22,249 bases of DNA, taken from the IMG/VR virus record IMGVR_UViG_3300025120_000624, positions 1-22,249 of that record. One strand, written 5' to 3'. The notes under the pieces were generated by a model, which worked only from the letters and a program-made list of their open reading frames with translations, was not told the origin of the DNA and made no database searches. The position numbers and the translations under genes are program-made. Of this stretch, positions 4,706 through 21,274 are shown in pieces. Source of the stretch: a virus. The number at the start of each line of letters is the position of its first letter. Position 1 is the stretch's first letter.

Positions 4706-4821
4706 GGAAAAAACTTGTTTACTATTTTGCAATAGCATTACTTAATATTGGTAAGCCTTTTACCTGTATCGGTAACTGGTTCTGGAAAAAACATAGAGAT
4801 GTGCTAGATTGGACTAAGTAA
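4702..4821 (+). CDS. 39-residue membrane-associated peptide
   Basis: A tiny protein starting at an ATGA overlap and ending at a TAATG overlap. Positive residues (MRKK) precede one hydrophobic stretch (LVYYFAIALLNIGKPFTCIG, residues 5-24), followed by an aromatic/basic NWFWKKHRD segment. It would sit in the inner membrane with its start inside. I do not know its role. The exact coupling to the oxygenase-like gene downstream means that gene's translation may depend on it. Confidence 0.6.
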   Translation: MRKKLVYYFAIALLNIGKPFTCIGNWFWKKHRDVLDWTK

Positions 4822-5894
4822 TGCCACCACGTAATCACAAAGATTGGACTAAAGAACCTAAAGTTGAATATATTAATTCACTAATCTACTCCGACCAGTC
4901 TTTATATGAGCAGGAAGTAGAAAATATATTCTCCAAAGTGTGGGTTCCATGCTTTCATAAAAGCGAACTTCCTAACGCCGGCAACTTCAGAACTGGTCAA
5001 ATAGCAGGGCAGAATATCCTTGCTTATAATACCGGAACGGAAATTAGAGCTTATCGTAACTACACCGTAATGGAACCTTCTGGTACCTTTGCAGCTCCTG
5101 TAGTTACATCTGAGCCTAGGTTATATTGCGAGGTAAAGCATGGTGGTATGGTTTGGATTACTTTAGACCCCAATCCCACCATGTCAGTGGAGGAATGGAC
5201 CTGCGGTGCTTTTGATTGTATTGCTGACGCGATTGATACGGAAGAAATGGAAGTCTTTCACTACCACAAAGCCGTAATAGATACTAACTACAAGCTGTGG
5301 CACGATACCAACAGCGAGTTTTACCATGACTTCATGCATTACTTCAATCGTGTGTCAGGATTTAACGATGAGTATTTCGCTAGAAAGAATATTCCTTTCG
5401 ATAATGGTCACGTTAACGTCAGTAGCTTTACTGTTAACTATGAAGAGTATGACGGATTTGAAGATAGGGGTGAGCTATCTTTTCCCAATCTGCCACCAAA
5501 CCAGTGGTACATGGTGGACTTATTCCCCGGTTATAACTTTAACCTACGGGGTAGTGCCTATCGTAGTGACAGCGTAACACCACTAGGGCCAAACAAAGTA
5601 CTGATTGAGTTCCGTGGATACGGCTTAATGAAAGACACCCCAGAAGAAAGACATACACGTATTAAGCATCATAACTCTATCTGGGGACCGTTCGGTAGGA
5701 ACTTACACGAAGATTTGATTGGCGTGGCTGGCCAAGGTACAACAATGCGTGAAGGTACAGAACCTCGTAACATCCTACACGGAAGACACGAGAATGGTAC
5801 AATACACGATGAAGTAGGTATGCGTCACTATTACGCTGAGTGGAGCAAGTGGATGGGCGTAGAAGCAAGTAGCCCATGTCAATTGGCGGCGTAG
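4821..5894 (+). CDS. Ring-hydroxylating-oxygenase-like protein without a Rieske centre
   Basis: A 357-residue protein related to the alpha subunit of Rieske non-heme iron oxygenases. The N-terminal part matches the family (QEVENIFSKVWVPCFHKSEL, then TEIRAYRN), but the Cys-x-His and Cys-x-x-His pairs that bind the 2Fe-2S cluster are absent. After RN81 the chain runs YTVMEPSGTF and reaches VKHGGMVWITLDP some 25 residues later, much sooner than in normal members. The catalytic half is kept: N-Y-K-L...E166-F-Y-H169-D-F-M-H173 and, near the end, H-E-D298-L-I-G, then WGPFG-type and EWSKWMG blocks. These give a possible 2-His-1-carboxylate iron site (H169, H173, D298). The two histidines are three residues apart, whereas four is common. 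Without the cluster, normal electron delivery is impossible, so it is either repurposed, partnered with another donor or non-catalytic. Confidence 0.8.
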   Translation: MPPRNHKDWTKEPKVEYINSLIYSDQSLYEQEVENIFSKVWVPCFHKSELPNAGNFRTGQIAGQNILAYNTGTEIRAYRNYTVMEPSGTFAAPVVTSEPRLYCEVKHGGMVWITLDPNPTMSVEEWTCGAFDCIADAIDTEEMEVFHYHKAVIDTNYKLWHDTNSEFYHDFMHYFNRVSGFNDEYFARKNIPFDNGHVNVSSFTVNYEEYDGFEDRGELSFPNLPPNQWYMVDLFPGYNFNLRGSAYRSDSVTPLGPNKVLIEFRGYGLMKDTPEERHTRIKHHNSIWGPFGRNLHEDLIGVAGQGTTMREGTEPRNILHGRHENGTIHDEVGMRHYYAEWSKWMGVEASSPCQLAA

Positions 5895-7381: not shown

Positions 7382-7685
7382 ACGATACGAAAGAACTAAT
7401 GGCCCCAGAGTACCGTGGGGGTACAAGAGGTCAGAACATGACCGCCAGCTCCTAGAGCCCGTTAATGAGCAATTAGAGGCGCTGGAGCAGGGTCTAGACT
7501 ACTTGAAGGCATCATCCTACCCAGAAGTAGCAAGATGGCTTACAGAGTACACAGGGCGCTCTATAACCCCTATGGGTCTGTGGAAACGTGTAAAGACAGA
7601 CAAATCAGACAGACGGAAGTATGCTGAACAAAAACGCCGTACCGCCAAGGCCCAAAACGAAGGCAACATCAACACCTCAAACTAA
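7347..7685 (+). CDS. Putative DNA-binding protein between the terminase subunits
   Basis: About 112 residues, starting at one of two adjacent ATGs (7347 or 7350) inside the end of the small terminase gene, with a 32- to 35-base overlap. I reject the longer frame from 7320. It reads NGPRVPWGYKRSEHDRQLLE, then a helix, then SSYPEVARWLTEYTGRSITP and MGLWKRVK. The PWGY and S-Y-x-E-V-A-x-W-L-x-x-x-T-G-R-S-I motifs resemble the DNA-binding recombinase domain of large serine recombinases, without any catalytic domain. A helix-turn-helix role in packaging-site recognition or cleavage is likely from position. This protein is regularly found between terminase genes in related marine phages, by memory. 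The large subunit starts 65 bases before its end. Confidence 0.75.
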   Translation: MMTLAQKLNPTERYERTNGPRVPWGYKRSEHDRQLLEPVNEQLEALEQGLDYLKASSYPEVARWLTEYTGRSITPMGLWKRVKTDKSDRRKYAEQKRRTAKAQNEGNINTSN

Positions 7686-9246
7686 AGAGGAAAAAGAACA
7701 GGCTCGCCTAGCTAAACAAAAACGTTCTGCACGTATGCAACTTAATATGGCGCAGAAGAAGATACAGAAGCTTGAGCGCCTTGAGAACCCAGAACCCGAA
7801 ATGCAAGTTATGGGTACTTCTGGGTTTGAGCAGTCTAACGAAGAACCCGAAGATAAAATCCTGTTTGAACCAAATCCCGGCCCTCAAACGGATTTTCTTG
7901 CGGCACCTGAGCGCGAAGTCTTATATGGCGGCGCAGCCGGAGGCGGCAAGTCTTACGCTTTAATTATAGACCCGTTGCGCTATTGCAACAACAAGAACTT
8001 CAATGCGCTAATTCTACGTAGAACAAATGATGAATTGCGTGAATTGATACATAAAAGTCAAGAGATGTACCCGAATGCTTATCCGGGTGCGAAGTGGATG
8101 GAAAAGAAAAGCCAATGGGTTTTTCCATCCGGTGCCAGAATATGGATGACCTATCTAGAACAGGACAAAGACGTTCTACGTTACCAAGGTCAGGCGTTTA
8201 CATATATTGGTATAGATGAATTAACACAGTATGCTACACCTTATGCTTGGGATTATCTACGCTCGCGTCTTAGAACAGCAGACCCTTCGCTCCCAGTCTT
8301 TATGCGAGCGACAACAAACCCTGGCGGACCTGGGCATATTTGGGTTAAGAAAATGTTCATCGACCCGTCCACCCCTGGAAGACCCTTTTGGGCGACGGAT
8401 ATCACCACCGGTGAAACCCTCACCTACCCAAGTCGGCATTCTAAAGCGGGTCAGCCTCTTTTCAACAGGCGTTTTGTGCCAGCTAAATTGTTGGATAACC
8501 CATATCTGTACGAAGCAGGTGATTATGAAGCCATGCTGCTCTCACTGCCAGAAGTACAGCGTAAACAATTATTAGAAGGGTCTTGGGACATTGCTGAAGG
8601 CGCGGCGTTTTCGGAATTTGATAGGCGGGTACACGTTATTGACCCATTTGAAATACCGAACTCATGGCGAAAGTTCAGGGCTTGCGATTATGGTTACGCT
8701 TCTGCTTCTGGCGTTCTTTGGTTTACTGTAGACCCAACTAACGAAACTTTAATTGTTTATAGGGAACTATACGTAAGTAAGGTACCAGCTAAAGAACTGG
8801 CGCATATGGTTCTAGAAGCTGAGGATGGAGAATCAATACATTACGGCGTACTTGATTCATCACTTTGGCATAAGCGCGGAGACACAGGACCATCCCTTGC
8901 AGAACAAATGATTGTCGAAGGGTGTAGGTGGCGCCCATCTGATAGAAGCAGGGGTAGCCGTGTAGCGGGTAAGAACGAACTACACCGGCGCCTACAGGTT
9001 GACGATGAAAGTGGCAGAGCTGGCATTGAGATAATGAGCAATTGCACTAATCTGATTGCGCAGCTTCCTACACTTCCAATGGATAAGACTAACCCAGAAG
9101 ATGTCAACACTAAAGTAGAAGACCACTTATATGATGCGTTACGATACGGTATTATGACGCGCCCCAAATCACGTTCCGTTTTTGATTTCTCTGGTGGACC
9201 ACCAAATCAACGATGGCAACCCGCTGATGCAACCTTTGGATATTAA
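7621..9246 (+). CDS. terL: Terminase large subunit
   Basis: A 541-residue packaging motor and nuclease. Residues 1-75 are a charged extension rich in Lys/Gln (ARLAKQKRSARMQLNMAQKK). The ATPase has Walker A YGGAAGGGKS (102-111), Walker B YIGIDE (195-200, with Asp199 and Glu200) and coupling motif ATTNPGG (230-236). The RNase-H-like nuclease has its metal-binding acids at Asp356 (ACDYGY), Asp412 (GVLDSSLW) and Asp501 or Asp505 (DHLYDALRYG). The start at 7621 overlaps the previous gene by 65 bases. A shorter start at Met39 is possible, but the extension looks coherent and is kept. No ribosome site is well spaced, so coupling is likely. Confidence 0.96.
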   Translation: MLNKNAVPPRPKTKATSTPQTKEEKEQARLAKQKRSARMQLNMAQKKIQKLERLENPEPEMQVMGTSGFEQSNEEPEDKILFEPNPGPQTDFLAAPEREVLYGGAAGGGKSYALIIDPLRYCNNKNFNALILRRTNDELRELIHKSQEMYPNAYPGAKWMEKKSQWVFPSGARIWMTYLEQDKDVLRYQGQAFTYIGIDELTQYATPYAWDYLRSRLRTADPSLPVFMRATTNPGGPGHIWVKKMFIDPSTPGRPFWATDITTGETLTYPSRHSKAGQPLFNRRFVPAKLLDNPYLYEAGDYEAMLLSLPEVQRKQLLEGSWDIAEGAAFSEFDRRVHVIDPFEIPNSWRKFRACDYGYASASGVLWFTVDPTNETLIVYRELYVSKVPAKELAHMVLEAEDGESIHYGVLDSSLWHKRGDTGPSLAEQMIVEGCRWRPSDRSRGSRVAGKNELHRRLQVDDESGRAGIEIMSNCTNLIAQLPTLPMDKTNPEDVNTKVEDHLYDALRYGIMTRPKSRSVFDFSGGPPNQRWQPADATFGY

Positions 9247-9248
9247 TT

Positions 9249-11354
9249 ATGGCTGATGAAGAACATATTGAAGCACTAGTATTTGAACCCGTTTCTGGTT
9301 CAGAAGCACTAGCAGGATATATTTCAAATAAATTTGAAAGCGTAGAGTCCAGCAGGTTGGAAGAAGAAGAGCGTTGGTTGAACGCCTATCGCCAATACCG
9401 TGGATTGTATGGCACAGAAACACAGTTTACGTCTACTGAAAAATCCAAAGTATTTATCAAGATTACAAAAACTAAAGTTCTAGCGGCGTATGGTCAAATC
9501 ATTGATGTATTGTTCGCCGGTCAAAGGTTCCCTTTAGGGGTTGAATCTACACTGGTGCCAGAAGGCGTTGAAGAAGCGGTACACTTTGACCCCAAAGATG
9601 ATACTAACGCTATGGATGAACTTCAAAGCAAGTATGGTTTTCCGGGCGATGGTGCAGAACTTCCACCTGGTGCTACGAGCCAGATGCTAGATGACCTAAA
9701 CTTAGGCGTATTTTCTGACGAACTGGGCGAGCTAGGTGATAAGCTACGTGTAGGTCCGGGCAAAACCGCTACATCTCAAACCTACCGCCCTGCAGAAACT
9801 GCAGCCAAACGCATGGAAAAGAAAATGCTTGACCAGCTAGAAGAGTCAAGTGCTTCTAAGCATCTGCGTCATACCGCGTTTGAGATGGCTTTGTTTGGTA
9901 CAGGCGTACTAAAAGGACCGTTTGCTTACGATAAAGAATATCCTAACTGGGATGAAGAAGGTAACTATTCTCCCATTATTAAAACCGTACCCAAGGTAGA
10001 AAATGTTTCTTTATGGAACTTGTACCCTGATTCAGATGCAAAAAATATGGATGAGTGCGAATTTGTTATTCAACGCCACCGTCTAAGCTTTTCTGAATTA
10101 CGTAATCTTAAAAAACGTCCATACTTCCGGCATGATGCTATTGATTCTGCAGTTAGCATGGGAACTAACTATGTACGTAAATGGTGGGAAGCAGACCTTG
10201 AAGATTATCGCAATACATATGATGTAGAACGATTTGAGATATTTGAGTATTGGGGTAACATTGACAAAGACCAAGCTGAAGAAGCCGGCCTTGAAATACC
10301 TAGCGAACTTGATGACTTGGATACGCTACAAGTAAACTGCTGGGTTTGTCACAATCAAGTGTTGCGTCTTGTTATCAATCCATTCACACCGAAGCGTATT
10401 CCTTACTTTGCCGCACCATACGAACTAAACCCTTACTCATTCTTTGGTGTTGGCCTAGCTGAAAACATGACTGACACACAGGCACTGATGAACGGCTTTA
10501 TGCGTATGGCTGTTGATAACGCTGTTCTGTCGGGCAACCTAATCTTTGAGATTGACGAAACCAACCTTGTTCCGGGCCAAGACCTAGAACTGTATCCGGG
10601 TAAGGTATTCCGCCGCCAAGGTGGAGCACCGGGGCAGTCGCTGTTTGGAACAAAGTATCCTAACGTATCACAAGAAAATATGATGATGTTTGATAAGGCC
10701 AGACAGCTTGCTGACGATGCTACAGGCATTCCATCGTACTCGCATGGTCAGACAGGTGTCCAAGGAACTGGACGAACTGCGGCAGGTATCTCCATGCTTA
10801 TGGGTGCTGCCCAAATCAGTATTAAGGGCGTTGTTAAAAACATTGATGATTACTTGCTACAGCCTTTGGGCGAGGCATTCTACGCATTTAACATGCAGTT
10901 TAATTTTGACCCCGCTGTTCGCGGTGATTTAGAAGTTAAAGCCCGTGGTACAGAAAGTCTTATGAAGAACGAAGTTCGCAGCCAACGTCTGCTTCAGCTT
11001 CTTCAGATTGCTGGCAATCCTAACCTAGCATCGTTTGTAAAGTTCCCTGTTGTATTGCGGGAGCTGGCACAAGCTATGGACTTGGATGCTGAAAAGATTA
11101 TTAACGATGAACGCGAAGCATTCCGTCAAGCAGAAATCATTAGAGCCGCTGGCGGTATGGCTGGCCCAGAAGAACAGGCCGCTGGTATTAATCCAATGGA
11201 TATGTCTGGCGGAGGCGGTGGTAACATCGGTGTAGGCGGAGCAGCAGTTCCGGGAGAACAGGGCTTCAGTGCCGCACCGGAACAAGCACCACAGCCAGAA
11301 GGTGGGCAAGCAATGGGCGCACAACTAGCTAGCATAATGGGCGGACTTAAATGA
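9249..11354 (+). CDS. Portal (head-tail connector) protein
   Basis: A 701-residue protein forming the ring through which DNA enters the capsid. Its length is typical for podovirus portals. The N-terminus has RLEEEERWLNAYRQYRGLYG, then KSKVFIKITKTKVLAAYGQI, the start of the clip and wing regions. Near residues 380-560 come IPYFAAPYELNPYSFFGVGL, the ALMNGFMR helix, and the stem/crown region with G-T-G-R-T-A-A-G-I-S (about 517-526), a hallmark of these portals. Residues from about 640 are a Gly/Pro/Ala/Gln-rich tail. It follows the large terminase by two bases with a GGA ribosome site. The next gene starts in its TGA (ATGA). Confidence 0.93.
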   Translation: MADEEHIEALVFEPVSGSEALAGYISNKFESVESSRLEEEERWLNAYRQYRGLYGTETQFTSTEKSKVFIKITKTKVLAAYGQIIDVLFAGQRFPLGVESTLVPEGVEEAVHFDPKDDTNAMDELQSKYGFPGDGAELPPGATSQMLDDLNLGVFSDELGELGDKLRVGPGKTATSQTYRPAETAAKRMEKKMLDQLEESSASKHLRHTAFEMALFGTGVLKGPFAYDKEYPNWDEEGNYSPIIKTVPKVENVSLWNLYPDSDAKNMDECEFVIQRHRLSFSELRNLKKRPYFRHDAIDSAVSMGTNYVRKWWEADLEDYRNTYDVERFEIFEYWGNIDKDQAEEAGLEIPSELDDLDTLQVNCWVCHNQVLRLVINPFTPKRIPYFAAPYELNPYSFFGVGLAENMTDTQALMNGFMRMAVDNAVLSGNLIFEIDETNLVPGQDLELYPGKVFRRQGGAPGQSLFGTKYPNVSQENMMMFDKARQLADDATGIPSYSHGQTGVQGTGRTAAGISMLMGAAQISIKGVVKNIDDYLLQPLGEAFYAFNMQFNFDPAVRGDLEVKARGTESLMKNEVRSQRLLQLLQIAGNPNLASFVKFPVVLRELAQAMDLDAEKIINDEREAFRQAEIIRAAGGMAGPEEQAAGINPMDMSGGGGGNIGVGGAAVPGEQGFSAAPEQAPQPEGGQAMGAQLASIMGGLK

Positions 11355-11569
11355 CCCCAGAAATAGCTAAGAAACTTCTACCTCTCGTTAATGTTAAGCG
11401 CAATCTTGATGCATTAGAAATGTATATGGAGTCCCGTATCACTGATATGCACCGCAATATGGAACAAGGTGATGATATGAAAGCCATGTATCAGGCACAA
11501 GGTGCTATACAAGAATTACGCAGGTTACGTACCCTGCGTGATGAAGTCATATCTAAGGCGGCAGCATAA
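11351..11569 (+). CDS. Small helical protein after the portal
   Basis: A 72-residue all-helical protein (LLPLVNVKRNLDALEMYMES, then HRNMEQGDDMKAMYQAQGAI and LRRLRTLRDEVISKA). It starts at an ATGA overlap with the portal stop and ends at TAATG with the next gene. No membrane segment is seen. Similar small helical proteins lie at this spot in related marine phages and carry no name. Proximity suggests a head-assembly role, for example a portal or scaffold helper, without further evidence. Confidence 0.75.
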   Translation: MTPEIAKKLLPLVNVKRNLDALEMYMESRITDMHRNMEQGDDMKAMYQAQGAIQELRRLRTLRDEVISKAAA

Positions 11570-14500
11570 TGGCTAAAACTATAAAGAAAGTCAAAGACAC
11601 CCTTGAAGAGGGATTGACTATAAATGTACCTGAAAGTTATTACAAAAAGCCCTTTGTCAAAAGAATGCTTGACCCGTCAAGTCCGACTATAGAGGTAGAT
11701 GGGGAAGAAGCTTCTGTCCGAACAATGAGTATGGATGGAAAATTATTTCCTACAATTGTTAAACAAGAATTATCTGATGGTTCATTTGGTTTAGTTGAGT
11801 TAGAACCACAACAAGCTTATGACAGAGCCATTGCTACAGGCAATTTTATACAGTTTGATAGCGATGAACAAGCTGACAGAAGTTCTAAACTACTCAGCAA
11901 AGAAGCAAGCACACTTCGCAAGGAATATAAAAATAACCAAAATTTTATAGCGCAGGGTGGTAAAGGTCTTGGGGACATAGAATTTCGTGCAGATATGGAG
12001 CCTTATTCAGGAGATGATGCATTAAATAGGTTGGCATTAGAGCTATTCCGCAGAGGGGAAATTGAATTAAAGGGCATTACACAGGACCAAGGTGAACGAC
12101 CTGGTGGAGGTGTCATAGGAGGATACGCAGGAAGAAACTTCTCTCGCCTAAATAATTCTTTGAAAAGACCTTTACGAGACCAGAATCCTCTGACTAAAGA
12201 AAAGATTATGTCAAGCCCTAGTCTCGCCACATACATTGCAGGAGTATCAGAAGACTCTGATACGACATTTGATAGACCTCGCGGAGAGTCAGAATTAGCT
12301 GCTATGCATGAACTAAGACACGGTGCTCTACGGTATTTGTTTAATAACACAGATTTAAAAAAACAAAAATATTTTGATAATTATGACATAGATGTTGAAG
12401 AAGACATTATGGATATGACTGATAATAAAACAATTAAAGACCGTAGTATACCTATAAAAATGAATGAAGTTTCTAAATTAAATCCTAAATATATAGGCGG
12501 AAGAGACAGATTTGATACGATTACTAAATATGCAACACAGGCACTTGAAGATTTTAATGTGCCGAAACGCACTGAACAGAAAAAGCCAGGCATGTTACAA
12601 AGTTTATTTGGCATGGAACAAGGGGGAATAATGATGGCACAACAAGGCAAAATGCCGCTACCGATGGAGGAAGCAACATCTGCACCTCAAGGTGGTGGAC
12701 CAAAGGCAGCTAACCCTGCGGCACAACCAGCAGGTTTGGGAGCACCTACAGGAGCACCTGCACCAGCCGGTTCATCCGACCCACGAGATGAAGCAATTAA
12801 AGAAGTGGCGCAAAAAATGCAAAGTCGTTCTGCCCCCGCACCCATTCCAGCAGAAGTTCCTCAAATGGCTCCTCCTGTACCCCCAACTGGATTAGCCGCC
12901 CCTATGGAAGAAGTGCCTATGATGGCAAAAGGTGGAATGACAGATGACAGCGGAATGTCAGTAATGATTGGACTAGGTGCCCCTCCTGCCGATTATGAAA
13001 AAGCCGCTGAAGGCAACCCACCGCCAGGCGCCACTAAAGAAGAAGTAGCTGACGACCAGCTTGTGCTTCTCAGTGAGGGCGAACTTGTAGTTCCCGCCAA
13101 TGTTGTCCGTTACCATGGTCTAGGTGCATATGAAGGTATGCGCCGTGATGCTCTTATGGGTCTTCAGGATATGGAAACCAACGGACAGATTGAGTACGTT
13201 AGTGGCGGTGCTGAAAAAGCTGATAAAGTTGATGATGATGGCGGTATTATTAAAGCTAACCGAGGTACATACTTAGGAAACCCAGGCACATATACACAAA
13301 ACCCAGTAGTTCCACAAGCCGCATCCTCTCAATACGTACAAGTGCCCGGAACCCAAGGTATGAATCCCGCGTTAAACACTATAACCGGATTGGCTAAACC
13401 AGTACTTAATGCACTTCAACCTCTATCTTTACCCGGAATGCCTACACTGGGTCAACCATATCAACCAGTAACTACGGCTAGCAGTGTATACGCTCCCAAT
13501 GTAGGTTCATACGCTGGTGATGGCACGGATGATGCCGCAGATGACAGCACTGACGACAGCACAGATGATGGAACAGGCACTGATGAGACTGAAGAAGAAA
13601 GACGTCGTCGGCTTGCAGCCCAGAATGCGGGAGATGGCGGAGATAACCCAGAAGAATACACGGGAGCTACTACTGTATTTGGTGGTACATCCCAAGATGG
13701 CATGATTAGAGGTGGCAAACAATACCAAATTGCGTACGAATCTAGCTCTAAACAAAAAGTACCGGGTATGGTTGGCGCTTTAATGAACATTGGTAATCTT
13801 GACCAAGTTAGGTTAACTGACCCAACTACAGGGCAAAGCGTTAGCATGTCTAAAGCAAAATATGATTCAATGAAAGAAAATAGAACAGACGCAGCCAATA
13901 TCAATTTTATTGATACTTTAATGCAAAACCAAGCCGGCATTGACTATAACAGAACGAGAGCTGGTGCCATTGCACCATTTAAAACAGGGCTTGCAGTAGC
14001 GGGTGAAGCATTAGGATTTGGTAATGCACCTGGAACTAGCGTGGCCGAACAGAATGAATATGCTAGAAGTCTGGCTGGCAGTCTAGGTATCGAGTACAAT
14101 GGGCAGTCCTTTGCTGAAGTAATGGCAACCCCAGAATTTAATGCGCCTAGAGAAGGTGGACCAGCTCCTGTATTTAGAGAAGATTCACAGGGTAACTTGG
14201 TTCCTGACACAAGATTTAGTACACCGCAAGGACTAGCCGCACCACAAGTTGGTGTAAGCACCTCCCCAACACTAGAAGGCGTAAGCCAAACAGGTAATTA
14301 CGCAGCTACGCCAACCTCCATAACGGACCCAGTAACTGGGCTAGTGTCAGCAGCACCATCAGCATTGGCAGGAAGACAGAGTGTTCCAGGTATAGCTAAT
14401 ATAGCTGGAACAGTTATGACCGTTATTGACCCTGTAACTGGTGCAGTTAGTTCCCAACCAATGCCGCAGATGAGCACTATGAATACGGCAGCTATGACAC

Positions 14501-15411
14501 CTGCACAACGTAGTACCGCTAGCGAAATTATTGATAGGCAGATGCAGGCAGCTGGACTTACTTCTGCACCTAGCGAACAAGTTGGTGTAAGCACCTCCCC
14601 AACACTAGAAGGCGTAAGCCAAACAGGCGATTACAGAAGTCAAGAAGTAGGTAGAAGCACATCTCCTACGCTTGAAGGTGTAAGCCAGACGGGTAACTAT
14701 GGAATTGAAGAAGGCGACTTTGACACCCCCGATAACCAAGGCGCCAGTATGGACGATGATGCCCCATCCTCAAGCCGTGATATGAGCACAAAAGAAGGAC
14801 GTAAAGCTGCTGCTGATGATGAAGCACGAGACCAAACAGGTAATCCTAATGCTACAGCCGTGACAGATAGCGCGGGTAATGCAGTTAGAAGCGGTAGTAA
14901 TAATAGCGTTGTAACTAATACTCCGCCTTCTAGTAATGACAGCGGCAGCGATGATGGCTGTTTTGCTAAAGGAACATTAATCAGTATGGCAGATGGTACT
15001 ACTAAATCAGTTGAGGATGTGGACATTAGTGATGAAGTAAAACTTGGCGGATTTGTATTTGCTACAGGTAAGTTCCTAATTAATAATCTTTATGAATATA
15101 AAGGTATCCAAGTGTCTGGTAGCCACATGGTTTTTGAAGATGGTAAGTGGCTTCGTGTTGAAGACAGCGAACTGTCCAAACTAATAACTAAAGATGACAC
15201 AATTGTATATGTATTTGGTTCAGAAAACAGACGTATTGTAATTGATGATGTGGTATTTACGGATTACTTTGAAGTCACTGAGCAAGAGAAACTAAAACAA
15301 ATTGGCAATTCTTACTTTACAAATTGGAAAAAAGATGCTAAAATTACTTCTAAATCTAATTTAGAAGTGAGAAACACAGCTAATGCTAACGCCACGACCT
15401 TGGCAGCTTGA
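11569..15411 (+). CDS. Large multidomain virion-region protein: HExxH motif and C-terminal Hint domain
   Basis: A 1280-residue protein in several modules. Residues 1-350 include HELRH (247-251), a zinc-metallopeptidase HExxH motif, with a Glu pair at 277-278 as possible third ligand. Residues about 355-460 are a Pro/Ala/Gly/Met-rich linker. Residues 498-545 contain LLSEGELVVPANVVRYHGLG, a motif of unknown role common in phage virion proteins. A low-complexity Asp/Thr stretch lies at about 650-675. Three 18-residue repeats follow at 894-1044. From Cys1131 (CFAKGTLISMADG) to the end is a Hint (intein/hedgehog) domain with the G-S-H1186 block and no terminal His-Asn, so splicing is unlikely but N-terminal self-cleavage is possible. 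It may be a minor capsid or injected protein. The next gene overlaps its end by 29 bases. Confidence 0.8.
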   Translation: MAKTIKKVKDTLEEGLTINVPESYYKKPFVKRMLDPSSPTIEVDGEEASVRTMSMDGKLFPTIVKQELSDGSFGLVELEPQQAYDRAIATGNFIQFDSDEQADRSSKLLSKEASTLRKEYKNNQNFIAQGGKGLGDIEFRADMEPYSGDDALNRLALELFRRGEIELKGITQDQGERPGGGVIGGYAGRNFSRLNNSLKRPLRDQNPLTKEKIMSSPSLATYIAGVSEDSDTTFDRPRGESELAAMHELRHGALRYLFNNTDLKKQKYFDNYDIDVEEDIMDMTDNKTIKDRSIPIKMNEVSKLNPKYIGGRDRFDTITKYATQALEDFNVPKRTEQKKPGMLQSLFGMEQGGIMMAQQGKMPLPMEEATSAPQGGGPKAANPAAQPAGLGAPTGAPAPAGSSDPRDEAIKEVAQKMQSRSAPAPIPAEVPQMAPPVPPTGLAAPMEEVPMMAKGGMTDDSGMSVMIGLGAPPADYEKAAEGNPPPGATKEEVADDQLVLLSEGELVVPANVVRYHGLGAYEGMRRDALMGLQDMETNGQIEYVSGGAEKADKVDDDGGIIKANRGTYLGNPGTYTQNPVVPQAASSQYVQVPGTQGMNPALNTITGLAKPVLNALQPLSLPGMPTLGQPYQPVTTASSVYAPNVGSYAGDGTDDAADDSTDDSTDDGTGTDETEEERRRRLAAQNAGDGGDNPEEYTGATTVFGGTSQDGMIRGGKQYQIAYESSSKQKVPGMVGALMNIGNLDQVRLTDPTTGQSVSMSKAKYDSMKENRTDAANINFIDTLMQNQAGIDYNRTRAGAIAPFKTGLAVAGEALGFGNAPGTSVAEQNEYARSLAGSLGIEYNGQSFAEVMATPEFNAPREGGPAPVFREDSQGNLVPDTRFSTPQGLAAPQVGVSTSPTLEGVSQTGNYAATPTSITDPVTGLVSAAPSALAGRQSVPGIANIAGTVMTVIDPVTGAVSSQPMPQMSTMNTAAMTPAQRSTASEIIDRQMQAAGLTSAPSEQVGVSTSPTLEGVSQTGDYRSQEVGRSTSPTLEGVSQTGNYGIEEGDFDTPDNQGASMDDDAPSSSRDMSTKEGRKAAADDEARDQTGNPNATAVTDSAGNAVRSGSNNSVVTNTPPSSNDSGSDDGCFAKGTLISMADGTTKSVEDVDISDEVKLGGFVFATGKFLINNLYEYKGIQVSGSHMVFEDGKWLRVEDSELSKLITKDDTIVYVFGSENRRIVIDDVVFTDYFEVTEQEKLKQIGNSYFTNWKKDAKITSKSNLEVRNTANANATTLAA
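14248..14301 (+). repeat. 54-bp coding repeat, copy 1
   Basis: This encodes V-G-V-S-T-S-P-T-L-E-G-V-S-Q-T-G-N-Y. It differs from copy 2 by only two bases over 54, in the N/D codon region. Confidence 0.9.
14581..14634 (+). repeat. 54-bp coding repeat, copy 2
   Basis: Nearly identical to copy 1 at the DNA level, including third codon positions, which indicates a recent duplication or gene conversion. It is followed after 12 bases by a third copy. Confidence 0.9.
14647..14700 (+). repeat. 54-bp coding repeat, copy 3 (diverged)
   Basis: This encodes the same 18 residues except that Val3 becomes Arg, but many third codon positions differ from copies 1 and 2. The protein sequence is conserved while the DNA has diverged. 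Confidence 0.85.
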
Positions 15412-15823
15412 CTTAGATTATCCCATATTAATCAATTGGTGGAAGCAATGGGAATTTGGCGTTGTACCTAGAGAATGCCTGCCCCCCGAAGGTATTATTG
15501 TAGAGCATGACACTGTTCCCATTTGTGCTACTGGTCTATACGTAGGCGAAGGTACAAAATATGGTTTTATGGAATGGGTGGTTGTTGATAAGTTAGCACA
15601 ACCAAAAGCCACGCACAAAGCTATAACTCTTTGCATTAATAGTATTATTGACTTAGCTAAACAAAAACAACTTAAACTTCTGTATACTGTAACTGGGGAT
15701 AAGAGCTTACATAAACGGTACACAAAGTATCATAATATGCATTTGCTTGAGAATAATACTAAAACGTTCCTTTTAAATTTGACAGATGCTCCCATAGATT
15801 TAGAAGCTTTTTCTGAATATTAG
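15383..15823 (+). CDS. Acetyltransferase-like protein
   Basis: A 146-residue protein starting 29 bases before the end of the Hint protein, in another frame. The layout is that of a short GNAT fold: PWQLDLDYPILINWWKQWEF, then PPEGIIVE and PICATGLYVGEGTKYGFMEW strands, VVVDKLAQPKATHKAITLCI with a helix, and KLLYTVTGDKSLHKRYTKYH with a final strand. Marine phages carry close relatives next to head genes, annotated as acetyltransferases by fold. The usual acetyl-CoA loop (Q/R-x-x-G-x-G/A) is not clear, so activity is uncertain. It could modify a virion or host protein or be structural. Confidence 0.65.
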   Translation: MLTPRPWQLDLDYPILINWWKQWEFGVVPRECLPPEGIIVEHDTVPICATGLYVGEGTKYGFMEWVVVDKLAQPKATHKAITLCINSIIDLAKQKQLKLLYTVTGDKSLHKRYTKYHNMHLLENNTKTFLLNLTDAPIDLEAFSEY

Positions 15824-15859
15824 ATTGTGTAACAGCACCACATTAACTTGCTGTAGACT

Positions 15860-15893
15860 GGCTACCCATCACCCCATTCGGCTACTGGTGGCC
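15860..15893 (+). promoter_or_regulatory. Hairpin leader before the scaffold gene
   Basis: GGCTACC (15860-15866) can pair with GGTGGCC (15887-15893) in seven base pairs, one of them G-U, around a 20-base loop. It lies in the only gap between the acetyltransferase-like gene and the scaffold and ends a few bases before the AAGGAGAAG ribosome site. I recall similar GC-richer stretches before scaffold genes in related phages. It may be a translational control or RNA-processing element. Confidence 0.4.
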
Positions 15894-15910
15894 CCGACAA
15901 GGAGAAGACT

Positions 15911-16768
15911 ATGGCTCGTATGGCTGTACAAGAAAAGGCTACAGCAGTAGCTGCCCCTACACGATATAATAGGGATAACTCAGAAGAGATTTCAGAATTA
16001 GAAGCATTACAAAACGAACGTAACGCTATTATTGAAGAACAACAGGATGCTGAAGAAACTGAAGCTATGCAACCTGAAGAAAAAACATTTAAGAAACGGT
16101 ATGGTGACTTGCGCCGCCATGCCCAAGAAAAAGAAAAAGATATGCGCAACCAGATACGCCAGCTTGAAGAACAGTTATCGTCAGCCACAAAGGAAGGCAT
16201 AAAGCTTCCTAAATCAGATGAAGAAATTTCTGAGTGGTCAAAGCAGTATCCTGATGTTGCTAAAATTGTAGAAACAATTGCTACTAAGAAAGCACAGGAA
16301 CTAGATTCTTCAATTGAAAAACGTTTACAGAATATAGCTGAACGTGAAATTGAATCTAACCGCCAACGAGCTGAGGTAGAGTTACTTCAATTGCATCCTG
16401 ATTTTGATGAAATCAGAAATAGCGAAGATTTTCATTCGTGGGTAAGCGAACAGCCTGCATGGATACAGAAAGCACTGTATGAAAATGAAAATGATGCTAA
16501 ATCAGCAGCCCGCGCTATTGACCTGTATAAAATTGACAGTGACATAGTAACTAAAAAGGCTAAAAAACCAAATAACAAAGATGCAGCAAAGTCTGTGTCT
16601 AGTAAAAATTCTATACCAAAACCACAGTCGGATGAAGCATCAGCATCTATAAAAGAATCTGATGTAGATAAAATGTCCGCACAAGAATACGAAAAACACG
16701 CAGAAGCAATTACTGCTGCTATTCGTAGTGGAAACTTTATTTATGATTTATCTGGCTCTGCTAGATAA
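15911..16768 (+). CDS. Capsid scaffold protein
   Basis: A 285-residue, highly charged, mostly helical protein just before the capsid gene. It guides procapsid assembly and is normally lost before maturation. Residues 20-50 are an acidic helix (EEISELEALQNERNAIIEEQ). KTFKKRYGDLRRHAQEKEKD and a coiled coil follow (to about 95), then KLPKSDEEISEWSKQYPDVA, a segment shared with scaffolds of related marine phages. A second coiled coil runs to about 170, followed by LHPDFDEIRNSEDFHSWVSE and a Lys/Ser linker. The terminal helix (YEKHAEAITAAIRSGNFIYD) is the probable coat-binding end. AAGGAG lies close before the ATG. Confidence 0.88.
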   Translation: MARMAVQEKATAVAAPTRYNRDNSEEISELEALQNERNAIIEEQQDAEETEAMQPEEKTFKKRYGDLRRHAQEKEKDMRNQIRQLEEQLSSATKEGIKLPKSDEEISEWSKQYPDVAKIVETIATKKAQELDSSIEKRLQNIAEREIESNRQRAEVELLQLHPDFDEIRNSEDFHSWVSEQPAWIQKALYENENDAKSAARAIDLYKIDSDIVTKKAKKPNNKDAAKSVSSKNSIPKPQSDEASASIKESDVDKMSAQEYEKHAEAITAAIRSGNFIYDLSGSAR

Positions 16769-16998: not shown

Positions 16999-18054
16999 AT
17001 GGCTTTTCCAAGAGCTCCGGGCTATAACAACTTACCGAATGGTAATTTTAGTCCTGTAATTTACTCCAAACAGGTGCAGCTTGCATTCCGCAAGGCCGCT
17101 GTTTGTGACGCGATTACTAATAATGACTACTTTGGAGAAATCGCAAACTTTGGTGATTCAGTTAAAATCATTAAAGAGCCTGAGATTACTGTCAAAGCAT
17201 ACGAGCGTGGTACGACCATTACCCCGCAAGACCTAGACGATGAAGATTTCACACTGACCGTTGACAAAGCAAACTACTTTGCTTTTAAAGTTGACGACAT
17301 TGAGGAAGCACATTCGCACGTTAACTTTGAATCACTTTCAAGCAACCGTGCTGCATACCGTCTAGCTGACCAGTTTGACCAAGATGTTCTTGGCTACTTG
17401 ACTGGTTTCAAACAGGCTGCAATTAACGGCAACGCTAATGTAGTCAACAACATTGTTAACGGAACTGTTGCTGTTGCCACTGCTGGCACAGATGAACTTC
17501 TTACTTCAATGAAGTTGACAGCCGCTGACTTTAATGGTGGTAACGCTGCTAACTGTGTGGGCTTGAAGCCTCGCGCATCTGAAGCTGTACCAACAGGTGC
17601 TGGTGTTGCTAACCCACTGACAGTGATTGCACGTATGGGTCGTCAACTTGACCTCCAAAACGTAGAATCACAAGGTCGTTGGCTAGTAGTTGACCCAGTG
17701 TTCGTTGAGCTACTGAAAGATGAAGACTCACGTTTGTTTGATTCAGACTTCGGTGGTTCTGGTCTTCAGAACGGCTTGATTTTGAATAACCTGCATGGAT
17801 TCCAAGTTCATGTTTCTAACAACCTGCCTTCTATTGGTACAGGTCCATCTACTACAGGTGGAACTAATGCTAATAACTTTGGCATGATTGTTGCTGGTCA
17901 TTCTTCATCAGTTGCTACTGCTGACCAAATCAATAAGACGGAAACATATCGTGACCCTGACAGCTTTGCTGACATTGTCCGTGGTATGCATCTGTATGGC
18001 CGCAAGATTCTTCGTCCTGAAGGTCTTGTTAACGCCAAATACTGCTTGCTGTAG
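16999..18054 (+). CDS. Major capsid protein
   Basis: A 351-residue coat protein. It starts after a strong AGGAGA site. The opening, with VQLAFRKAAVCDAITNNDYF, is followed by FGDSVKIIKEPEITVKAYER, the beta region of P22-like/HK97-fold coats. FTLTVDKANYFAFKVDDIEE and QFDQDVLGYLTGFKQ form the spine helix. In the middle, ARMGRQLDLQNVESQGRWLV with VDPVFVELLKDEDSRLFD is typical of this capsid group. The C-terminus has GMIVAGHSSSVATADQINKT, then TYRDPDSFADIVRGMHLYGR. The position after scaffold, the length and the strong ribosome site all agree. It is probably the most highly expressed gene here. Confidence 0.95.
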   Translation: MAFPRAPGYNNLPNGNFSPVIYSKQVQLAFRKAAVCDAITNNDYFGEIANFGDSVKIIKEPEITVKAYERGTTITPQDLDDEDFTLTVDKANYFAFKVDDIEEAHSHVNFESLSSNRAAYRLADQFDQDVLGYLTGFKQAAINGNANVVNNIVNGTVAVATAGTDELLTSMKLTAADFNGGNAANCVGLKPRASEAVPTGAGVANPLTVIARMGRQLDLQNVESQGRWLVVDPVFVELLKDEDSRLFDSDFGGSGLQNGLILNNLHGFQVHVSNNLPSIGTGPSTTGGTNANNFGMIVAGHSSSVATADQINKTETYRDPDSFADIVRGMHLYGRKILRPEGLVNAKYCLL

Positions 18055-18620: not shown

Positions 18621-19547
18621 ATGGCATACGACTATTTGGGATTAACTAATGAAGTTATTGCTCGTATGAACGAGGTATCTCTGACTGCGGCTAACTTTAT
18701 CTCTGCACGGGGATTCCAAATTCAATGTCAAAATGCAGTTAATGATGCTATTAATTACATCAACCAACGAGAATTTGGTTGGTCTTTTACACATCAAACC
18801 CAAACTGAAACATTAGTTCCGGGTACTACTAGATATACTGCACCAGCTTCCACACAATCCATAGATTACGATTCCTTTAGAATTAGTAAAGATTCTAACC
18901 TAGCTTCTGCTGGAGTTACACTTAGGATTATTGATTACAAAGAGTATACACAACGATACATTGTTCAAGAAAATGATGTCGTTTCTACAACTTTAAATGG
19001 CGGTATAAATAATACCGTTACTACAATTACTGTAGTTAGCACAGCGGGTTTTGACGCCGCAGGGTCAATACAGATTGCTAATGAAACAATCACGTATACT
19101 GGTACCACTACCACAACCTTTACTGGTTGTACACGGGGTACAGCAGGAACAACTGCTGCCGCACATAATACCGGCGTTAATGTAGCACAGTTTACAACTG
19201 GGGGTATACCCAGTCTTGTATTTAGAACACCTGATAACAACTTCGGTTTGTATCCGTACCCTAATAAAGGTTATGAATTAGTGTATGAGTACTTTGATAG
19301 GCCCACTATTTTAGTGGCGGCAACTGATGTTCCAACTATTCCAGAACAATTTAGACAAGTTATTGTAGATGGTGCCACAGCGTACTCATATCAGTACCGA
19401 GGTGAAGCACAACAGTACGGCCTTAACTTTGCTCGTTTTGAAGAAGGCATTAAACAAATGCAAACCCTATTACTCAATAGGGCAGACTATATCCGTTCTA
19501 CTTATATACCGGCTGTTCAACGGTATGGAAATATTGCGGGATATTAA
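18621..19547 (+). CDS. Head-to-tail adaptor-like protein with inserted module
   Basis: A 308-residue protein just after the terminator, with AAGGATG before its ATG. The beginning (YLGLTNEVIARMNEVSLTAA, then QCQNAVNDAINYINQREFGW) is helical and matches the adaptor/tail tubular A type of short-tailed phages, which joins portal and tail. The ending has IPEQFRQVIVDGATAYSYQY and helices with NRADYIRSTYIP. Between them, residues 123-188 are a Thr/Gly/Val-rich beta module (ITYTGTTTTTFTGCTRGTAG core) that also occurs in the next gene. In sequence databases such modules are assigned to the FCCH-like domain, by memory. The module is probably surface-exposed. Confidence 0.8.
   Translation: MAYDYLGLTNEVIARMNEVSLTAANFISARGFQIQCQNAVNDAINYINQREFGWSFTHQTQTETLVPGTTRYTAPASTQSIDYDSFRISKDSNLASAGVTLRIIDYKEYTQRYIVQENDVVSTTLNGGINNTVTTITVVSTAGFDAAGSIQIANETITYTGTTTTTFTGCTRGTAGTTAAAHNTGVNVAQFTTGGIPSLVFRTPDNNFGLYPYPNKGYELVYEYFDRPTILVAATDVPTIPEQFRQVIVDGATAYSYQYRGEAQQYGLNFARFEEGIKQMQTLLLNRADYIRSTYIPAVQRYGNIAGY
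18987..19184 (+). repeat. 66-codon inserted module, copy in adaptor
   Basis: This encodes residues 123-188 of the adaptor: T-T-L-N...TTITVVSTAGF...ETITYTGTTTTTFTGCTRGT...AAAH. The same module occupies 19844-20041 in the next gene with the same length. Confidence 0.85.
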
Positions 19548-19558
19548 GGTAAAAAACT

Positions 19559-21274
19559 ATGTCAGATGAAACTGGCCTCAATCCGTTTGTATTTGCTTGT
19601 CAGGGGGGTCTAGTACTTGACCAATCTACTTTCGCTATGCAGCCCGGAATGGCGTTAGAATTAGAAAACTTTGAACCTGCCACTACTGGCGGATATCGTC
19701 GTATATCTGGCTATACAAAATGGAATCCTAATATAGTTCCACAAGACCAAAGTGCCAGCGAACAAATATTAATGTCTGCACATTTTGATGGTAACGTTAT
19801 TGCAGCGAGGGGGCGTAAAGTTTGGAAAGCTACTAATGGTAGCACAACGTTAAGCCTAGCATTGAATAACTCAGTCACGACTGTAACAGTAACATCCACT
19901 ACAAACTTTAGTACCCAAGGAACACTATTAGTTGGTTCTGAAGAGATTACCTACACTGGTAAAACTAGCACAACTTTTACAGGATGTTCGCGCGGAGCTA
20001 ATAGCACTTCTGCAGCAGCACACCTTAATAACGCAGTTATTACCCAAACTTGGACAGAGCTAGATTCAGGAAGAACAGGTGCAGGTAGATACTCTTTTTT
20101 TAGATACAATCTTGCAGGTGTAGATTATATTATATGGGCTGACGGTGCTAATGCGGCATCTAGATATAAAACTGCCAGCAACACAATATTAGACATTACA
20201 GCATCGGGTGCACCCGCAGACCCTAAATTTGTTACCGGCTATAAAAACCATATGTTCTTTGCTGGTATGTCTGCAACACCACAATCTTTAGTATTCAGTG
20301 CACCATTTAATGAAAATGATTTTCAAACGGGTCAAGGTGCAGGTATAATAAATGTAGATAGTCCTATTACAGGATTATTTCCATTTCGTGATTCTTTAGT
20401 TATTTTCTGCGAAGAACGAATATTTAAGTTAGTAGGTAACACTCTATCTGACTTTCAATTACAACCAATTACACGTGAAATAGGATGTCTTAACGGTTCT
20501 ACTATTCAAGAATTTGCAGGAGACATTGTATTTCTAGGGCCGGATGGACTGCGTACGGTTGCTGGTACAGCCAAAATTGGTGACGTAGAACTTGGTACAA
20601 TTAGCCGCGCAGTTCAAGAACGTTTTGAACGTTTATCAGACGTGGATGAATTTACAAGTACAGTTATTGCAGATAAAACACAATATAGAATATTTTTTAC
20701 TAATTCTGAAACACCCAGAGCTGTAACAACCGGCATTATATGTGTAAAAAAGAGCGAGGCGTATGAGTTTGCTGATTTAAAAGGCATACGTCCCAGTTGT
20801 ACAGATAATGTTGTATCTAATGGGGAAAGCATTATTGTACACGGCGACTTTGACGGGTACATATATAGACAAGAACAAGGGAATGACTTTGACGGTAATA
20901 ACGTAACTGGAAAGTATCGTTCCCCAGATTTAACAATGGGTGACGCAGGTTTACGTAAATCCTTTCAACGTGTCATTCTTAACTACGCACCCGAAGCGGC
21001 TGTTAATGCAGACTTATTCGTGCGTTATGACTATGAAGCACCCAACGTAGCTCGTCCAGCCGCATATCCATTTGACAGTGCCAGTGTAGTAGCCGTGTAT
21101 GGAAGTTCTGTATATGGCACTGCAACATACGGTGGACAGTCTAACCCGTTAGTAAGACAGCCTATTGAAGGTAGTGGATTTGCTGTAGCACTGCGCGTTA
21201 ACGATAGAGGTACATCAGCACCCTACGCCCTAAAAGGGTTTCAGTTAGAATTTACAGCCGATGCAAGGAGATAA
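19559..21274 (+). CDS. Large tail protein (tail tube/hub type)
   Basis: A 571-residue mainly beta protein. It opens MSDETGLNPFVFACQGGLVL and DQSTFAMQPGMALELENFEP, a start I recognise from tail proteins of marine podoviruses. Blade-like repeats follow, containing GYRRISGYTKW, MSAHFDGNVIAARGRKVWKA, DYIIWADGANAASRYKT, FVTGYKNHMFFAGMSATPQS and GEIVFLGPDGLRTVAG-like strands, which suggests a beta-propeller such as the tail stabilisation or hub protein of short-tailed phages. The later part (QFAVALRVNDRGTSAPYALK-like) is a beta-sandwich. Residues 96-161 carry the same inserted module as the adaptor. A RBS-like AAGGT lies before ATG 19559. The exact role is inferred. Confidence 0.75.
   Translation: MSDETGLNPFVFACQGGLVLDQSTFAMQPGMALELENFEPATTGGYRRISGYTKWNPNIVPQDQSASEQILMSAHFDGNVIAARGRKVWKATNGSTTLSLALNNSVTTVTVTSTTNFSTQGTLLVGSEEITYTGKTSTTFTGCSRGANSTSAAAHLNNAVITQTWTELDSGRTGAGRYSFFRYNLAGVDYIIWADGANAASRYKTASNTILDITASGAPADPKFVTGYKNHMFFAGMSATPQSLVFSAPFNENDFQTGQGAGIINVDSPITGLFPFRDSLVIFCEERIFKLVGNTLSDFQLQPITREIGCLNGSTIQEFAGDIVFLGPDGLRTVAGTAKIGDVELGTISRAVQERFERLSDVDEFTSTVIADKTQYRIFFTNSETPRAVTTGIICVKKSEAYEFADLKGIRPSCTDNVVSNGESIIVHGDFDGYIYRQEQGNDFDGNNVTGKYRSPDLTMGDAGLRKSFQRVILNYAPEAAVNADLFVRYDYEAPNVARPAAYPFDSASVVAVYGSSVYGTATYGGQSNPLVRQPIEGSGFAVALRVNDRGTSAPYALKGFQLEFTADARR
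19844..20041 (+). repeat. 66-codon inserted module, copy in tail protein
   Basis: This encodes residues 96-161: T-T-L-S...TTVTVTSTTNF...EEITYTGKTSTTFTGCSRGA...AAAH. By eye roughly half of the residues are shared with the adaptor copy, while the DNA has diverged. Confidence 0.85.

Follow-up and report, generated by a model that had tools for sequence, protein, structure and literature searches.

A modular protein with a C-terminal Hint domain and a linked partner gene in a putative HMO-2011-related podovirus

The record IMGVR_UViG_3300025120_000624, whose 22,249 bases are the stretch of DNA analysed here (the window), comes from a tailed phage of the ocean and encodes on its plus strand, between the portal and capsid genes, a protein of 1280 residues (11569 to 15411). 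We propose, with a probability of about 55%, that this is a modular virion or ejection protein of a podovirus related to HMO-2011, and that its C-terminus carries a transplantable cassette formed by a self-cleaving Hint domain and a partner gene. ORF (open reading frame) calling returned the same 1280-residue frame as the first-pass annotation, which had seen in it a HExxH motif and a terminal Hint and had taken both for parts of one processed polyprotein. That annotation overlooked the linked gene at 15383 to 15823, which is the strongest feature of the locus.

The Hint domain and its partner gene

Hint domains are familiar as inteins, Hedgehog domains and toxin-release domains. In the window protein Pfam gave a weak match to Hom_end_hint (E 2e-4, 21.8 bits, under the cut-off of 32.1), and the assignment comes from the predicted structure. 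The model of residues 1125-1280 reached a predicted local distance difference test (pLDDT) value of 84.5, and its segment from Cys1131 to Asp1232 (model residues 7-108; 14959 to 15264, plus strand) superposed on PI-SceI (Z 13.0), on the bacterial intein-like (BIL) domains BIL2 of T. thermophila (12.5) and that of C. thermocellum (12.3), and on Hedgehog (Z 11). These superpositions covered 99-112 residues with a root mean square deviation of about 2 Å, the last intein residue falling on Asp1232. At the level of the model, a Hint fold running from Cys1131 to the terminal residue is confirmed, and the predicted N-terminal cleavage site (Gly1130-Cys1131 with the block-B His1186) is intact.

Conservation was followed in two sets of sequences. 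In the first, the invariance of FTDYFE and CF came partly from the patterns used as seeds; a repeat seeded with the partner gene agreed with it and provided 52 distinct domains without this bias, with identities down to 37%. Cys1131, Phe1132, Gly1184, His1186, Asp1232, Tyr1233, Phe1234 and Asn1269 are invariant in all 52, and Gly1130 is conserved in 51. The family therefore has the two marks of the Hint superfamily, a nucleophilic Cys at position 1 and the block-B His. Its C-terminal end is that of neither a class 1 splicing intein nor an A-type BIL domain: Asp1232 aligns with the terminal Asn, but the usual His-Asn is replaced by Thr-Asp in 51 sequences and by Ser-Asp in the other, and the +1 residue is Tyr, not Cys, Ser or Thr, in 52/52. 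A Hint without a +1 nucleophile is what defines BIL domains in the wider sense, and the invariant Tyr1233 agrees with this. After Asp1232 there is a conserved tail (YFEV...NW...RN, residues 1233-1280 and the stop codon, 15265 to 15411, plus strand), which suggests that the C-terminal piece has a role of its own. Within it, Asn1269 (15373 to 15375) lies near the extreme C-terminus and is mostly followed by Ala.

The partner gene encodes a protein of 146 residues (phrog_17252; 15383 to 15823, plus strand) and overlaps the end of the Hint ORF. Our script placed a gene of this family immediately downstream of the Hint ORF in 48 of 49 distinct loci, in most cases with an overlap between the two; the remaining one (L058) also has it, its start call being over-extended. 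Conversely, the Hint is directly upstream in 41 of the 47 distinct partner-gene loci with readable upstream DNA. Each of the remaining six has two genes between Hint and partner, first an Asp/Asn beta-hydroxylase (PF05118, 36-42 bits in the three tested) and then a short-chain dehydrogenase (SDR; PF00106, in the two tested). The same order was found in one contig of a marine metagenome-assembled genome (MAG). This four-gene operon was recorded at L165, L170, L186, L188, L208, L209 and L309, which are marine phages and the one MAG contig. Among proteins with the HMO-type core described below, the partner gene accompanies 8/8 with a Hint versus 0/74 without it (Fisher p 3e-11, uncorrected for relatedness). 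Hint matches lacking the partner gene were limited to contigs that end and to a Hint of a different, distant kind (L013, L016); every locus of the window-type family with readable downstream DNA forms an operon with the partner.

By eye the partner protein resembles a GNAT, and among its homologues in cultured phages one is annotated as an N-terminal acetyltransferase subunit. Neither the search against PHROGs nor hhalign to E. coli RimI and T7 gp13 gave a significant GNAT identity; GNAT-like is thus used here as a pattern-based label only.

The proteins that carry the Hint fall into several unrelated N-terminal clusters, including DUF4815/VrlC-like baseplate-region, tape-measure-like and glycine-rich proteins. 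In all of these virion-type proteins the domain lies at the extreme C-terminus, generally with a Gly-rich linker before it and the conserved helical tail behind it. This arrangement would also fit the main rival to our proposal, in which Hint and tail serve as a C-terminal cap for folding or assembly. The partner would then be the cap's own chaperone or its trigger, and cleavage would do no more than take the cap off once assembly is complete. Peptidase_S74, a chaperone domain of phage fibres that cleaves itself, is a precedent (PMC7824862). We regard the cap reading as unlikely: many orthologues manage without any cap and finish in a short basic tail (KGGLASKKK, for example), and the Hint has no homology to S74. 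Separately, tandem Hints were observed, in which a BIL-like Hint with VVHN-KG at its end immediately precedes a window-type Hint at the protein C-terminus (L048, L080, L083, L084, L087, L088, L093, L096 and L097); their carriers are DUF4815/VrlC-like baseplate-region or related proteins.

Exchange of modules and the putative metallopeptidase

The relatives of the 1280-residue protein retain its core and swap both ends. The core, DDQLVLLSEGELVVPANVVRYHGLG, spans residues 484-553 (13018 to 13227, plus strand) and is the part common to HMO-2011 and the CRP roseophages. The motif LLSEGELVVPANVV, correctly reported by the first-pass annotation, occupies residues 500-513 within it, and the surrounding core is the only stretch of the protein detectable in cultured phages. 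Its position after the portal gene and the core motif LSEGE.V.PA.V identify the window protein as a member of the HMO-2011-type portal-scaffold locus. Near the N-terminus there is another conserved segment (DPSSPTIEVDG..MDGKLFPT.., residues 28-113, 11650 to 11907, plus strand), which alignment delimits and the model depicts as a compact beta-rich unit (pLDDT about 75-90). Between core and Hint lies a low-complexity, fast-evolving linker with repeats, STSPTLEGVSQTGNY (13489 to 14940, plus strand), whose identity to near relatives is 31-58%, as against 75-97% for the portal and 82-96% for the Hint.

At the N-terminal slot, other members have a phage tail lysozyme (lysozyme2) with LysM (L009), a lysozyme-like region followed by LysM (L012) or, in CRP-2 and CRP-3, a Hydrolase_2 cell-wall hydrolase, and others differ again. 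At the C-terminus, the Hint is found among core proteins in the window, L002-L012 and L021, and the same place is taken elsewhere by modules beginning CVIATHA (L024, L229), CCFIML (L131, L132, CRP-13, CRP-345), CYVATAL (CRP-1) or ICTELY (HMO-2011). A true CFI-box occurs in L027 only (NF041770, 52 bits, cut-off 40), and the NF041770 profile gave no match in the window protein. An exchange of this kind is seen in L024, which has 97% identity to the window in its portal: Hint and 146-residue gene are replaced there by the Cys-led CVIATHA domain between the same flanks. We also considered a replacement of the Hint by the CFI-box in cultured VrlC/DUF4815 proteins and rejected it, since the seven isolates checked end without either. 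Two roseophages, CRP-345 (L033, 8222-8926) and CRP-13 (L036, 6764-7459), have an overlapping methyltransferase gene after the CCFIML module, a pairing that recalls Hint and partner gene. The same module occurs in L131 and L132 without the methyltransferase gene.

An element of 38 bp, lying ahead of the scaffold-position gene (15858 to 15895, plus strand), marks the right edge of the exchanged segment. Relatives retain it with hardly a base changed, including those with differing C-terminal modules and those in which Hint and partner are replaced (L024, L131); a 36-bp pattern was present in 22 loci. Rfam gave no match to this element, which is possibly a regulatory or a recombination site.

The HExxH domain of the window protein comprises residues 134-334 (11968 to 12570, plus strand), as delimited by conservation and a low-confidence model. 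Thermolysin-type gluzincins have HExxH followed by N-E-x-x-x-D. Here the motif is H247-E-L-R-H251 (12307 to 12321, plus strand), and E277-E278-D-I-M-D282 (12397 to 12414, plus strand) offers a candidate third zinc ligand and a supporting acid. The residues named by the first-pass annotation are in place, and the acidic pair stands where thermolysin would have it. A chance occurrence was rejected: the protein has four His only, a HExxH arises in 0.075% of shuffles that keep its composition, and diverged relatives conserve the motif. In 16 distinct sequences (pairwise identity median 32%, minimum 23%), HELRH and the EE pair 18-28 residues downstream are among the very few invariant positions, and as a sequence pattern they correspond to HExxH plus a downstream Glu ligand; several of the diverged relatives were retrieved with HELRH as seed, and for those the EE alone is independent evidence. 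The AlphaFold model (pLDDT 58.7, low confidence) puts HExxH on a helix (240-260) and EE on another (274-292), a placement that would fit a gluzincin, and leaves the fold unmatched.

The best reading of this module is a zinc peptidase-like enzyme riding on a virion protein; it may act on peptidoglycan cross-links or on a protein of the host or the phage. The alternative that HELRH lies in a non-enzymatic structural domain could appeal to that low-confidence model and to searches of Pfam, of PDB and of folds, none of which found a match for the domain (nor did PDB hold a solved relative of the N-terminal region). It seems to us somewhat unlikely, as HELRH and EE stay invariant while their spacing varies, and several of the other modules in the same slot are enzymes.

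The two motifs do not depend on each other. HExxH and Hint occur together in the window protein, L002/L017 and L021, and this had favoured their joint processing of one polyprotein. But the HExxH module is joined to the core without a Hint in L024, L131 and L132, it is found at other positions and without a Hint in L133-L137 (in other contexts in L134, L136 and L137), and Hint and core coexist with lysozyme/LysM or other N-terminal modules in L006, L009 and L012. Each module being found without the other, the polyprotein version is largely refuted and we give it very little credence.

Proposed mechanism and points against it

In our proposal the enzyme in the N-terminal slot can be exchanged and is, in the window protein, a putative zinc metallopeptidase (HELRH...EE..MD). 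The core (DD..LSEGE.VVPA.VV) is the conserved family part, and the C-terminal cassette comprises a minimal Hint/BIL-like domain (Cys1131-Asp1232), the conserved tail of about 48 residues and the GNAT-like partner. The carrier would be synthesised with the Hint at its end, and an N-S acyl shift, most likely at Gly1130-Cys1131, would convert Gly1130 into a thioester. Residues 1-1130 would then be released by hydrolysis or transferred to a nucleophile. The linked enzyme or enzymes could act on the Hint, on the new end of the carrier or on the tail, the partner probably modifying or assisting this step or the carrier. A more specific version, which we put forward tentatively and at somewhat less than even odds, is that the Thr-Asp-ended Hint and the GNAT-like enzyme, in some loci with the hydroxylase and the SDR, constitute an undescribed marine-phage cassette that cleaves the carrier and chemically modifies or conjugates its newly formed C-terminus. 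Gene order and the cell-wall hydrolase modules of the relatives point to a virion location of the 1280-residue protein. The injection suggested by the first-pass annotation is plausible, since peptidoglycan hydrolases are found in this place in relatives.

Several observations weigh against this proposal. The C-terminal splice residues are atypical (Thr-Asp followed by Tyr), Ser or Ala replaces the block-B Thr, neither Pfam nor a PDB profile search nor hhalign supports the GNAT assignment of the partner, and the HExxH model is poor, its fold comparison giving no match with a Z of 5 or more. The atypical end makes splicing unlikely and a non-cleaving structural Hint possible. The domain would in that case be a degenerate intein remnant acting as a structural domain, possibly as a covalent or binding anchor, and the changes of terminal Asn to Asp, of penultimate His to Thr and of block-B Thr to Ser or Ala, together with the +1 Tyr, are in line with it. 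This is nevertheless improbable, as Cys1131 and His1186 are preserved throughout the unbiased sequences and Gly1130 in all but one, and inteins with a C-terminal Asp or Gln are active, as are BIL domains without a +1 nucleophile, which yield cleavage products (PMC7664689, PMC4031507). For the self-cleaving cassette, cleavage at Gly1130/Cys1131 is the natural prediction and full splicing is not expected.

Locus, distribution and comparison with known systems

Upstream of the 1280-residue protein, the window encodes the terminase (7621-9246) and the portal (9249-11354; SU10_portal, E 1e-30), and an ORF of 72 residues lies between the portal gene and the 1280-residue ORF, which starts immediately after it. 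The partner gene is followed by the scaffold-position gene (15911-16768), the major capsid gene (16999-18054; phrog_267) and the tail genes. The first-pass placement between portal and scaffold holds for the portal; its scaffold matches phrog_13678, a PHROG without an assigned function, and is so named by position only. The gene order of Puniceispirillum phage HMO-2011 and the CRP roseophages is largely that of the window, and the syntenic counterpart of the protein, phage1322_49 in HMO-2011, is annotated as hypothetical in these phages. Elsewhere in the window, a gene like the alpha subunit of ring-hydroxylating (Rieske-type) oxygenases (4821-5894; PF00848 above cut-off) is a candidate auxiliary metabolic gene, and two adjoining tail proteins have an inserted segment in common, TVTTITV..ETITYTG..TTTFTGC(T/S)RG (18960-19200 and 19830-20050), with matches to baseplate-wedge PHROGs.

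Marine viral contigs often encode a Hint of the window-type family, and one scan yielded 126 confirmed cases. In 50,697 phage records the family hardly occurs, weak matches in Vibrio phages being all that appeared; among 84,980 prokaryote genomes it was found in one marine MAG contig, with phage-like gene order. This distribution would explain how the family went unnoticed. The searchable literature yielded no account of a window-type Hint together with the partner gene, and none of the CFI-box. The Hint fold is known and its present use is undescribed there, and the cassette with its partner enzymes may be the most novel part. If our proposal is true, a Hint fixed at the C-terminus of unrelated virion-type proteins with a constant partner gene is a new use of the fold and points to an undescribed route of virion-protein processing in marine phages. 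Large hypothetical proteins of these abundant phages would be explained as chimeras of N-module, core and C-module. The system is testable, as scission is predicted at a precise site and the partner gene is evident, and with the predicted cleavage the cassette would offer a compact natural self-cleaving tag.

Finally, the protein was compared with known systems. Its HExxH module resembles thermolysin-type gluzincins, HExxH...(N)ExxxD, in having EExxMD 18-28 residues after HELRH, but neither its sequence nor its fold could be matched to that of a solved peptidase. The homologues in HMO-2011 and the CRP roseophages share the locus position and the core motif, whereas they have other N- and C-terminal modules and neither Hint nor partner gene. 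CFI-box-CTERM (NF041770) and the other Cys-led domains of the orthologues sit at the C-terminus where the window protein has its Hint, in many cases behind a linker rich in Gly and Ser. They too start with Cys, but they are not Hints. The Peptidase_S74 intramolecular chaperone is likewise a C-terminal self-cleaving domain of unrelated virion proteins, cleavage being a prediction for the window Hint, although S74 differs in fold and chemistry and has no linked partner enzyme. Hedgehog autoprocessing (Hog) domains agree in C-terminal position, block-B His and the predicted upstream release; no sterol-recognition region was seen in the window Hint, which has a gene-encoded linked partner instead. 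Class 1 inteins with a C-terminal Asp or Gln share the fold and the terminal Asp, while the window Hint is followed by Tyr, has no conserved C-extein and is always at the protein C-terminus rather than in a conserved insertion site. The BIL domains of C. thermocellum (2lwy) and T. thermophila (BIL2, 6y75) have in common with it the Hint fold, the N-terminal Cys, the block-B His and the lack of a +1 nucleophile, with cleavage expected rather than splicing; the window Hint differs from them in its Thr-Asp|Tyr end in place of His-Asn, its conserved tail, its dedicated partner gene and its phage carriers.

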